Origin: a virus | DNA length: 48,213 nt | Virus record (IMG/VR): IMGVR_UViG_3300037587_000370 | Coordinates: 1-48,213 of that record | Reading direction: 5' to 3' (one strand) | The notes under the pieces: generated by a model | Told to the model about the DNA's origin: nothing | What the model saw: the letters and a program-made list of their open reading frames with translations, nothing else | The model's database searches: none | Shown here: positions 36,652-45,791 of the stretch, in pieces | How positions within the stretch are numbered: the stretch's first letter is position 1 | Layout: each line of letters begins with the position of its first letter | Translations under genes and position numbers: made by a program

Positions 36652-36694
36652 TAAACATAACATTGTGTTTAATGACTGTCAACGGTTACGTTTA
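36652..36694 (-). promoter_or_regulatory. Regulated promoter of the MazG-lysis operon
   Basis: On the minus strand TTGACA (36677-36682), 17 bases, TATGTT (36654-36659). Operators: TAAACATAAC (36652-36661), inverted ATTGTGTTTA (36662-36671) and GTTACGTTTA (36685-36694), the last reaching into the minor head gene stop. Confidence 0.75.
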
Positions 36695-41104: not shown

Positions 41105-41145
41105 ACAATAAAACATTACGTTTAATACTGCAAGCTTTATGTTTA
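41105..41145 (-). promoter_or_regulatory. Regulated promoter of clamp/methyltransferase operon
   Basis: On the minus strand TTGCAG (41128-41133), 17 bases, TATTGT (41105-41110). Operators ATTACGTTTA (41115-41124) in the spacer and TTTATGTTTA (41136-41145, one mismatch) upstream of the -35. Confidence 0.65.
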
Positions 41146-41156
41146 TTTTACCCAAT

Positions 41157-41176
41157 AAAAAACCACCCGAAGGTGG
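41157..41176 (-). terminator. TTCG-loop terminator of the RNA gene
   Basis: On the minus strand CCACC, TTCG, GGTGG, TTTTTT: a compact, very stable intrinsic terminator ending the candidate RNA. Confidence 0.9.
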
Positions 41177-41523
41177 CTTAGTCAGAGCAAGCGGACTCTT
41201 ACCCCGCCTCGTGGATTCTACGATCCAGTCCCATTTAGATTTTTAATTCGGGCATTCATTTTATAACCCATCAAGCATTCTCATAGAAAACACTTGAGGG
41301 GGGATTGCCGAACCGGTACGGTGGCAAGCCGCATGAAAGTAAAAGCCCGAGCTACAAGAGGATAACGCTCGGTGAAAAACTTACCTACAGGTTAATATTA
41401 GTCCAATGTAGTGGTCACACCTTACAGGGTGCGCGCTATGGGTAAAGGAGCGCCGCTATAACCGACACAACCCATTAAACTATTCACTTGGAGATACCGG
41501 CACCTGGTAAACCGCCGTTCTGT
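41157..41523 (-). ncRNA. Candidate structured non-coding RNA, about 365 nt
   Basis: Between a near-consensus promoter and a TTCG-loop terminator on the minus strand lies a 365-base stretch with no substantial reading frame. Predicted hairpins (minus strand) include GCGCT/AGCGC, CACC/GGTG, CCGAGC/GCTCGG, TTGCCACCG/CGGTTCGGCAA with a 3-base loop, a 9 bp CAAGTGTTT helix, GGAT/ATCC and GCGG/CCGC. It is not a recognisable tRNA, tmRNA, RNase P RNA, 6S RNA or group I intron. It lies between SSB and the clamp-like operon. The function is unknown; the RNA nature is inferred from signals and structure. Confidence 0.6.
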
Positions 41524-41529
41524 AAACAT

Positions 41530-41558
41530 AATATATGTTAATGTGCTGGCGGTGTCAA
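41530..41558 (-). promoter_or_regulatory. Strong promoter of the candidate RNA
   Basis: On the minus strand a perfect TTGACA (41553-41558), exactly 17 bases, then TATATT (41530-41535), with a predicted start near 41523. An operator copy TAAACATAAT (41523-41532) overlaps the -10 and start site. Confidence 0.75.
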
Positions 41559-41577: not shown

Positions 41578-42078
41578 TTAAAATGGTGTTGATGAGTCCC
41601 AACCGTCGTCTAAGTCAGGCGTTTTGGCTTGCTGCTGGCCCTGGGTTTGTTGCGGTGCTTGTTTAAATCCTTGCTGCTGGCCTTGCTGCTGGGGTTGTTG
41701 TGTTGCCTGCTGCTGATAACCCCCTTGCTGCTGTGCTGGCTGTTGCTGTTGTGCCTGTTCGATATAACCAGCCGCATCAATTCGGGCGTTTTCCATAAAT
41801 AATTTAATATACTGGCCGCACTCGCTAACCTCGATCTTTAATTTTTCGCTAGATAACGAAACCCAATTACCTTTCACCAGGGTTTTATTGTAATACTCAA
41901 TATGTGCCGGTGAAGCGGCAAATAACAAAGCCTTATAATTGGTATAAGACTTTTCGCCAGTTTTATAATCCTTTGTGACTTCGCACAATTCAAGCCCGTA
42001 CATTGTTGATTGACCATCTTTACCAACGCCCTGCTTAATAAACGTGTCTTTTCTCAATTCGCCTGTTATTACATGCAT
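41578..42078 (-). CDS. ssb: Single-stranded DNA-binding protein
   Basis: The 166-residue protein has an OB-fold-like first 105 residues (ITGELRKDTFIKQG, NYKALLFAA, GNWVSLSSEKLKIEV). A strongly Gln-rich linker follows at about 108-150, then a short acidic tip ending DDGWDSSTPF, comparable to the D-x-P-F tip of bacterial SSB. The start follows GGAGTGA. It should coat ssDNA in replication and recombination and recruit partners through the tip. It lies next to a RecA/Sak4-like ATPase and RecE-like exonuclease. Confidence 0.85.
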   Translation of the reverse strand: MHVITGELRKDTFIKQGVGKDGQSTMYGLELCEVTKDYKTGEKSYTNYKALLFAASPAHIEYYNKTLVKGNWVSLSSEKLKIEVSECGQYIKLFMENARIDAAGYIEQAQQQQPAQQQGGYQQQATQQPQQQGQQQGFKQAPQQTQGQQQAKTPDLDDGWDSSTPF

Positions 42079-42119: not shown

Positions 42120-43127
42120 TTAAAAGTTATTTGCGATGTCTTGTTCGGTTGGTGCTGGTTGATCTATCTGCTGCTCTGGCTCTGGTTCCTGCTTGGCAAT
42201 CTTGGCAGGATTAAAACTACTTTGGGCAGTTGGTAGATCTTCGTTCTCGCCGGTAAACGTTTGCGCTGCTGCCTCGTCAATAGCCTTTGCTGAGGCCCAA
42301 AATACAGACTTAACCGATTGCAAGCCAACTTGAATATCTTCTGGCATTGCTTGCCACGCTTGCTTTAATGCATCACAACCGTCGTTAGATGCCAGTTGCA
42401 TTTTGTTGCGGTAGCTTTCGAGCTGGTCGTCTATGTTACCAGAATCTAACCAAGCGCGGATTTGCTGGCCTGTTTCAATCCCCAGGTAACCTTGACCATC
42501 GCCAAACGCTTCCTTTAAATCACGCGGGATCTTTAAGTGTTGCTGATAACTGCCCTCATTAAACATCATGACGCTGGCACTAAGCTCGAACATAAAGTTT
42601 TTTTCACACAATGGCTGAATACCCAGGCTAACCGGCTGCTTAGGGTTTTTAAAGTCAGTCTTTTCGGCTGCTCGGATGCATACAATAATATGCATATCTG
42701 ACTGTAATAACGTGGTCATAAACTTTTTATGTTCAGCCTTGGTTTTTTTCCAGTCGGCCATCTTTTTACCGCGTAATAATGGGGCCTCGGCAATTTCCAT
42801 GCAGCCACTCTCCCACTCATGACTAACACTGTCGACAATTAATACCTTAACGCCTGCCGCCTGGAATTCTTTGATAGCCACGGCATAACGATCCGGAGAG
42901 AATGGATAAAACAGATCGCCTATTAAAAACTGGCCATCAAGCTCATTGGCATAAAGCGATCCGCGTCGGTTTTCCGTATCTAAAAAACCAATTTCACCCG
43001 CGTGATCTGTCATGCCACGCGCAACATATAAAGCTGTTAATGTTTTGCCGCTGCCTGATTGACCGGCAATGCCTAATACTAATTTTGAACCAGCTCTAAC
43101 GGCTGGGCGTATGTTTAGGATGCTCAT
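42120..43127 (-). CDS. RecA/Sak4-like recombination ATPase (AAA_24)
   Basis: This 335-residue protein has Walker A GQSGSGKT at 22-29, Walker B VLIVDSVSHEW at about 95-105, and a RecA-like core to residue about 230. An acidic Gln/Pro-rich tail (EPEPEQQIDQPAPTEQD) completes it. Such AAA_24 proteins act as Sak4-like single-strand annealing partners of phage exonucleases. It overlaps the upstream nucleotidyltransferase-fold gene by 4 bases and precedes SSB, forming an exonuclease-annealer-SSB set. Confidence 0.82.
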   Translation of the reverse strand: MSILNIRPAVRAGSKLVLGIAGQSGSGKTLTALYVARGMTDHAGEIGFLDTENRRGSLYANELDGQFLIGDLFYPFSPDRYAVAIKEFQAAGVKVLIVDSVSHEWESGCMEIAEAPLLRGKKMADWKKTKAEHKKFMTTLLQSDMHIIVCIRAAEKTDFKNPKQPVSLGIQPLCEKNFMFELSASVMMFNEGSYQQHLKIPRDLKEAFGDGQGYLGIETGQQIRAWLDSGNIDDQLESYRNKMQLASNDGCDALKQAWQAMPEDIQVGLQSVKSVFWASAKAIDEAAAQTFTGENEDLPTAQSSFNPAKIAKQEPEPEQQIDQPAPTEQDIANNF

Positions 43128-43514: not shown

Positions 43515-43555
43515 ACTATATTACGTTTAACATGTGGCCGCAAGCGTTATGTTTA
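43515..43555 (-). promoter_or_regulatory. Regulated promoter of recombination operon
   Basis: On the minus strand TTGCGG (43538-43543), 17 bases, TATAGT (43515-43520). Operators ATTACGTTTA (43520-43529) and GTTATGTTTA (43546-43555). The 16 bases TAAACATAACGCTTGC match the rightward early promoter exactly. Confidence 0.75.
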
Positions 43556-44516: not shown

Positions 44517-45710
44517 TTATTCGCCTTTTAATTTAATTGATTGGATAAGACTGCTTAAATTTTTAACTGCCTTTGAACGCATGTGCTTTTTGTTATCTGA
44601 TAAAAATAATTCCAAAGCAGAGCTTACTTTACCTTTTAACTTGACAATGTTGACCTTATCTTTTAATTCGATTGGTAAAATATCATAAACGCAAACCTTA
44701 ACATCAACAGGAACCAGCCCACGCTTAACCGCTTCTATTCTTAAGGCTTGCTTTTCTGCCTCCAAGATGTTTGATTTTATAGGAAATGCATTCTCACCAT
44801 TCTTTGATAAGAAAGACTTAAGAGCCATATTAGATATTTCGCTTTCATTTTGACCGTCAATGTGATGACTGCCACCGCCGCCAGTGGTTGATGGTTGGTA
44901 ATAATCGCTAACGTCGGCAAAGCCATCATTGGCAATTTTAATTAATAGTTCAAGGTTGCCAGAATCAACCAATAATTTAGTTGCATAATATTGAAGATAA
45001 AACGAGTCAACGGCATTGCGATCTCGATCAAGCTCTAATACGTTTGGTGCAAAATTATAGCTAAAACGATAATTGTTATTATCATCATTTTTAAGGTCAC
45101 AAACAAAAAGACCGCCGACAAATACCTTTTTAATATTGTCCTCGTCTTGATCGTAATCATAATCAAAGCAGTAACTATCATTATATTCTGCGAAAACTTC
45201 AAAGTTTTCCATCTCAAGGTAATTACTTTCAATAATGTCAAAATCATCATTGGTCATGCCGTTAATGACAAACTCAACTCTATCACCTCGATCCTCGAAG
45301 TAATCGCTAATCACTTCAATTGTTAAGCAATTAGATCCTAGCTGATCATGAGGCGCGATACTTGTTAACCAAAGATCGTTACCGTTGGCAATCTGCAGGT
45401 TGTAACCCATACGGCACAGGACCAGCATGGCCAGTTTGTAACCTTCTCCATACTTACCGATGGTTGAATCATCATTATTTTTTGATGTTTCGCCAAGCAT
45501 TAAAGTTGAAAGGTCAAGGGTGCCGCCGTTAGATTGAATCTTAATTAAGCGATCATAAGTTGACTTAATTACTTTGAAATCTTTTGTATCAATTGCGTTT
45601 TGAAGCAGTTCACGTGTAGCCTCCCAGAAACCCCAGTGGTTAACATAGTTAACGCTAATTGGTAGCTGAATAATTTGATTTTGCTGCTCTACTAATTTCA
45701 ATGAGTTCAT
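44517..45710 (-). CDS. GHKL-fold ATPase (rIIA-like candidate)
   Basis: The 397-residue protein contains the N-box E34-L-L-Q-N38-A-I-D41 and the G2 box IGKYGEGYKLAML (84-96) of the GHKL ATPase fold (Hsp90, MutL, topoisomerase II, histidine kinases). No kinase phosphoacceptor, MutL or gyrase C-domain is seen. The T4 rIIA protein has a GHKL domain, so a counter-defence or membrane/DNA-associated role is possible. A poly-Gly stretch (TTGGGGSHH) separates the ATPase core from a helical C-terminus. Own regulated promoter. Confidence 0.75.
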   Translation of the reverse strand: MNSLKLVEQQNQIIQLPISVNYVNHWGFWEATRELLQNAIDTKDFKVIKSTYDRLIKIQSNGGTLDLSTLMLGETSKNNDDSTIGKYGEGYKLAMLVLCRMGYNLQIANGNDLWLTSIAPHDQLGSNCLTIEVISDYFEDRGDRVEFVINGMTNDDFDIIESNYLEMENFEVFAEYNDSYCFDYDYDQDEDNIKKVFVGGLFVCDLKNDDNNNYRFSYNFAPNVLELDRDRNAVDSFYLQYYATKLLVDSGNLELLIKIANDGFADVSDYYQPSTTGGGGSHHIDGQNESEISNMALKSFLSKNGENAFPIKSNILEAEKQALRIEAVKRGLVPVDVKVCVYDILPIELKDKVNIVKLKGKVSSALELFLSDNKKHMRSKAVKNLSSLIQSIKLKGE

Positions 45711-45750: not shown

Positions 45751-45791
45751 TATATAACGTTACGTTTATCGATGTCAATACGTTATGTTTA
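45751..45791 (-). promoter_or_regulatory. Regulated promoter of the GHKL gene
   Basis: On the minus strand TTGACA (45773-45778), 16 bases, TATATA (45751-45756). Operators GTTACGTTTA (45759-45768) in the spacer and GTTATGTTTA (45782-45791) upstream of the -35, the latter inside the end of the VRR-NUC gene. Confidence 0.8.

Follow-up and report, generated by a model that had tools for sequence, protein, structure and literature searches.

A predicted structured RNA family of marine phages with a conserved core and an interchangeable 3′ module

The put antiterminator RNAs of phage HK022 are structured RNAs of an early phage operon. AbiF is regarded as ancestral to Cas13. In C. difficile the abiF RNA binds and neutralises AbiF, also in trans (PMC12373285), and cyanophage S-CREM1 is recorded as having an abiF RNA (PMC9964418). 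Phage mimics are known both of ToxI (PMC3475682) and of CRISPR repeats (PMC10651486). GOLLD and ROOL are associated with phages or prophages (PMC12286853); these two and OLE are noncoding RNAs that are structured and a few hundred nucleotides long.

We predict that the virus record IMGVR_UViG_3300037587_000370, analysed over a stretch of 48,213 nt (the window), encodes on its minus strand a structured RNA gene that almost certainly represents a new, previously uncatalogued family. The RNA is of the same general kind as GOLLD, ROOL and OLE, but it is smaller, has another set of helices, lies beside SSB and ATPase genes, and has a core without an Rfam match. It shares with the HK022 put RNAs a structured form and a place in an early phage operon, whereas its core is about 210 nt long (put RNAs are about 65-70 nt) and in three members the RNA has its own promoter and terminator. 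The features of the locus are as follows.

41558-41530, minus strand: sigma-70-type promoter, TTGACA-17-TATATT, with 11 of 12 consensus bases
41523-41531, plus strand: operator-like site TAAACATAA, over the -10 and start of the RNA gene and in the opposite orientation to it
41523-41155 (both ends approximate), minus strand: predicted RNA gene of about 365-369 nt, 5′ end placed from the -10 and 3′ end from the terminator
41305-41517, minus strand: conserved structured core with helices PA, PB, P2, P2i, P3, P4 and P5, from covariance models R1/R2
41506-41502 with 41392-41388, minus strand: closing helix PA, CAGGT/ACCTG, compensated among members
41497-41494 with 41398-41395, minus strand: PB, inside PA, GTAT/ATAT
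41438-41475, minus strand: P2, ATGGGT/ACCCAT, with inner P2i, GTGTC/GGCGC; two compensated pairs in three sequences
41449-41444, minus strand: unpaired TCCTTT within the P2 region
41417-41432, minus strand: P3 hairpin, GCACC/GGTGT; CACC/GGUG becomes UAUU/GAUA in L121
41347-41372, minus strand: P4 hairpin, CCGAGC/GCTCGG, loop GTTATCCTCTTGTA, from the comparative structure
41305-41327, minus strand: P5 hairpin, TTGCC/GGCAA, with a 13-nt loop; loop length constant, stem sequence variable
41181-41304, minus strand: variable 3′ module of about 125 nt, not shared with relatives; folding z -2.07
41267-41301, minus strand: stable hairpin CCC-TCAAGTGTTTTC...GAGAATGCTTGA-GGG in the 3′ module; z -4.4, with none of 200 shuffles as stable
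41179-41160, minus strand: intrinsic terminator, stem AAGCCACC-TTCG-GGTGGTTT with a TTCG loop, then a T-run
41578-42078: SSB gene (phrog_44), upstream of the RNA gene
42120-43127: Sak4-like ATPase gene, behind which the SSB gene lies

Given the positions of the promoter and the terminator, the transcript is expected to run from about 41523 to about 41155. The original prediction described a perfect promoter; the site is present, but it is one base short of the consensus. Other parts of that description hold: the terminator has the stem, TTCG loop and T-run, the stretch is free of long genes (the longest ORF is 46 aa, and the core has no conserved frame among relatives), and the RNA gene lies between the SSB gene upstream and a clamp-like operon downstream. 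This operon contains an 87-aa ORF, the clamp-like protein (phrog_3007, whose relatives are annotated as DNA polymerase III beta) and a DNA methyltransferase, and it has a promoter motif of its own at 41116-41145.

The spacing and position of the promoter are kept in two relatives, L002 (TTGCAA-17-TACATT) and L121 (TTGACA-17-TACATT), and both carry an operator copy at the same place, the start of the RNA homologue. The phage operator over the RNA start had been proposed from the window alone. Its motif, TAAACRTAA, occurs in 16 exact copies in the window against a mean of 2.0 in shuffled sequences (shuffle maximum 6), and the sites are paired at several promoters (41116/41137, 43521/43547, 45760/45783 and others). 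From the shared operator we infer that the RNA may be controlled together with the early genes. The scan of window proteins turned up no integrase. Many promoters of the phage contain TAAACATAA and TAAACGTAA as a pair, for example at 41116-41145, 43521-43555, 45760-45791 and 36652-36694.

Searches against 4227 families of Rfam 15 (including GOLLD, ROOL, OLE, 6S, RNase P, tmRNA, introns and ToxI) gave no match in the window at the gathering score and nothing relevant when relaxed to E 10. L002 and L121 gave no Rfam matches, and ARAGORN found no cloverleaf or tag peptide. These results agree with the earlier statements that the RNA matches no tRNA, tmRNA, RNase P, 6S or group I intron pattern and has no specific likeness to GOLLD or ROOL. 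The size and complexity of the fold could suit a ribozyme, a decayed intron or the guide RNA of a mobile element, but we consider this extremely unlikely: the core has no Rfam match, no reverse transcriptase or TnpB-like protein was found among the window proteins scanned, and the gene is framed by a promoter and a terminator of its own and does not interrupt another gene.

Related IMG/VR contigs were fetched with the ATPase, SSB, clamp and portal as queries. The L002 homologue is 72% identical over 209 nt (E 3e-18), with promoter, core and terminator conserved and a different, longer 3′ half. The L121 core was found by nhmmer (E 3.5e-16), and its terminator comes immediately after the core. 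The homology of both covers the 5′ ~210 nt of the window RNA. Because the 3′ half differs in L002 and the L121 core runs straight into the terminator, we treat the core as a unit and the 3′ part as an add-on.

A first covariance model (R1/R2 series) was built from the window, L002 and L121. It detected L003:6612-6763 (E 1.2e-8 in the 640 kb searched) and L004:6092-6220 (E 0.008 in 640 kb, 6e-4 within its own record). A second model, to which L003 was added, detected L004 at E 7.6e-5 and L006:7504-7656 at E 1.2e-4, each the top match in its own ~11-kb locus. Membership was defined by PA/PB, P2, P4 and a P5 with a 13-nt loop, with compensated changes, and all of these are present in the window, L002, L121, L003, L004 and L006. 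A terminator also lies 3′ of the core or module in L002, L121, L003 and L006. The predicted layout of the family is thus a ~210-nt core (a PA/PB multibranch with P2 and P3, then P4 and P5), an interchangeable 3′ module and a terminator.

Beyond these six, a blastn search of GenBank phages and plasmids with the RNAs as queries returned terminator-like or short matches and no homologue, and an exact-pattern scan of the genome collection found none. The core model gave three weak matches in 369 bacterial genomes, about the number expected by chance. Of 22 viral-contig loci matching the DNA pattern CGGTTTAYCAGGNGCCGGT, one (L002) is homologous; the others were discarded, as they are without core similarity and look coding. 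Pseudoalteromonas phage H40/1 was also rejected as a member; it has a gene-free gap of ~600 nt with no model match inside. This gap (L135:6120-6723, KU747973 40119-40722) is unannotated, and the terminator at its end is very like that of L002.

In six related marine phages, matching mutations keep the predicted fold intact. In a MAFFT alignment of the window, L002 and L121, the core structure has 34 pairs, with 94.8% of cells paired and 10 pairs changed on both sides; the count of compensated pairs is 10-12. Neither value was reached in 500 shuffles, and structures slid by 1-3 columns gave at most 45% pairing and at most 2 compensated pairs. PA reads CAGGA/TCCTG, TCTGA/TCAGG, CGAAT/ATTCG or CTCAT/ATGAG in other members. 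A six-member alignment of the helix arms has compensatory change in 23 of 27 pairs, a count made by eye and illustrative only. All six members have a P5 loop of exactly 13 nt, which in most of them follows a UUGCCGRUY-like consensus. A long-range pairing of this loop with GCCGGU, seen by eye, is not kept in L121 or L003 and was dropped. Nine alignment cells are G-U pairs if read on the minus strand but A-C mismatches if read on the plus strand, in support of the minus strand as the strand of the RNA.

Single-sequence folding of the window RNA is unremarkable (z -1.14, with 12 of 100 shuffles as stable; plus strand z -0.86). Folding energy close to that of shuffles means that the claim of a stretch full of stable hairpins is not evidence in itself, and for the RNA as a whole it does not stand; the one hairpin in the 3′ module does exceed chance. 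Unremarkable folding would also suit a non-functional spacer or a small protein gene. Against this reading are the ten to twelve compensated pairs, gaps in the core that are mostly not multiples of three and would shift a frame, and stops in every frame of all three core sequences. The homologues therefore have compensatory changes in place of a conserved coding frame, as the structured-RNA prediction required, and we regard the spacer and small-protein reading as refuted by the covariation and barely credible.

In the window, L003, L004 and L006 the gene immediately before the RNA is the ATPase or SSB gene; in L002 and L121 it is another gene. The L006 RNA starts just past the stop codon of SSB and has a terminator at its end, and the L004 RNA sits between two genes without a clear promoter or terminator; neither of these two RNAs has an obvious promoter of its own. 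Such positions, inside an operon (L004) or at its end (L006), speak for a cis element of the early operon (a leader, a put-like antiterminator or a 3′-UTR stability element) that would affect read-through or decay around SSB/ATPase. However, the RNAs of the window, L002 and L121 have their own promoter, operator and terminator, the downstream operon in the window has its own promoter motif, and the neighbouring genes differ between members. We judge a cis role to be unlikely.

The location among DNA replication and recombination genes might also point to a replication, packaging or virion RNA (an origin primer, or a pRNA-like molecule). This is improbable, as cumulative GC skew has no extremum at 41.3 kb (in 2-kb steps), the terminase genes are 30 kb away, and the 3′ module varies freely.

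The 3′ module is absent in L121, ~125 nt long in the window, ~300 nt in L003 and ~410 nt in L002, and the sequences differ. The modules of the window and L002 have no database matches. The L002 module was considered as the holder of a gene fragment (48 aa), for which no relative was found. The L003 module holds a complete abiF RNA hairpin (RF03085, L003:6856-6892) that scores 43.2 bits against an Rfam cut-off of 37; an abiF RNA was defined as a 37-nt hairpin with a GCCUCU...AUGC core and at least 37 bits. The window RNA differs in having no abiF match up to E 1. The P4 loop CCUCUUG was considered as a relict abiF motif, which the abiF model does not support.

An AbiF system was defined by an adjacent toxin, and none of the six phage records has a match to the Abi_2 protein (PF07751). 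In a bacterial control, six abiF loci were examined; a suitable adjacent ORF was present and scanned in three, and all three encode Abi_2. The abiF RNA is above the cut-off in 12 of 369 genomes of the class of a Cupriavidus genome. In L003 it appears as an orphan antitoxin inside an RNA of ~500 nt, with no AbiF protein in the record.

Because a relative carries this antitoxin copy, the phage RNA may help disarm the host. The explanation that we tentatively favour as a whole is a phage RNA that works in trans, with a counter-defence decoy as its most likely role. It would be transcribed from its own promoter when the TAAACRTAA-dependent phage programme is on, and the folded RNA would act in trans; trans action is favoured by the independent predicted promoter, operator and terminator in three members. 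The core would serve as a stable scaffold for contact with a conserved partner, whether a phage or host protein or an RNA. The 3′ modules, swapped between phages, would be bait for host RNA-binding defence proteins. The abiF hairpin of L003 would be expected to bind host AbiF and keep it inactive, as the chromosomal abiF RNA does, and the module in the window would have a different target.

On this favoured reading the RNA would resemble the pseudo-ToxI of phage PhiTE and the Racr anti-CRISPRs, phage noncoding RNAs that mimic a host defence RNA. Pseudo-ToxI and Racr are near-copies of host repeats, whereas here a recognisable copy is found only in the L003 module, a conserved phage-specific core is attached, and ToxI-like tandem antitoxin repeats (~34-50 nt) are absent beyond one 10-nt pair.

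The L003 module suggests a counter-defence bait, from one relative and from beyond the window. For the bait reading are the covarying core, the matches at homologous loci, the promoter and operator kept in the three closest members, the modular 3′ end, the orphan abiF in L003, the bacterial control, the neutralisation of AbiF by abiF RNA in trans, and the known phage mimics of ToxI and CRISPR repeats. Against it, a recognisable antitoxin is present in one of the six members, the window module has no known counterpart, and no defence partner is known for the core. With no obvious promoter for the L004 and L006 RNAs and no module in L121, a decoy payload cannot be the basic function of the core.

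The strongest rival of the decoy reading is a base-pairing regulatory RNA, possible but doubtful, whose exposed pyrimidine loops would pair with host or phage mRNAs at their Shine-Dalgarno or start-codon regions and thereby alter translation in early infection. The proposed loops are CUCCUU(U) beside P2, CCUCUUGU in P4 and CUUUCAUG between P4 and P5. The comparative structure leaves CUCCUU unpaired, and 5 of 6 members have it; CCUCUUGU and CUUUCAUG are kept in the window and L002. L006, however, lacks both CUCCUU and the CUUUCAUG strip, and CUCCUU may pair internally with AAGG after PA (by eye only). An antisense role towards the phage's own transcripts was rejected, as the longest complementarity in the window is 12 nt, which is at chance level. 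An apparent pairing with the start of a 139-aa gene vanished against the real sequence. The core's own role is explained by neither the bait nor the Shine-Dalgarno-pairing reading.

Returning to the decoy, we propose, with considerable doubt, that the family may be a platform in which a conserved core carries exchangeable baits (for AbiF in L003, for other targets in the window and L002), each a mimic of the RNA that a different host defence protein binds, and in which phages exchange specificities through recombination at one end of the RNA gene. If the modules are baits, phages would have in them a modular, RNA-only counter to toxin-antitoxin systems and defences related to these, and the sequences of the modules would be leads to defence RNAs so far undescribed. 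The analysis also provides a covariation-supported RNA family absent from Rfam, with a recipe for its covariance model.

Several neighbouring genes differ among the relatives. In L002 a gene for a Band_7/SPFH protein (L002:995-1882) separates the RNA from the clamp gene; in the window this place is taken by the 87-aa ORF. Two similar ORFs with a repeated GINxADYMVxPxVNGK motif flank the RNA gene in L121 (L121:3-614 and 1522-2100) and are possibly mobile endonuclease-like genes. The window encodes at 44517-45710 a protein with a weak HATPase-like match (phrog_6077), adjoining an exonuclease VIII-like protein, and a protein similar to it lies downstream of the RNA in L006.
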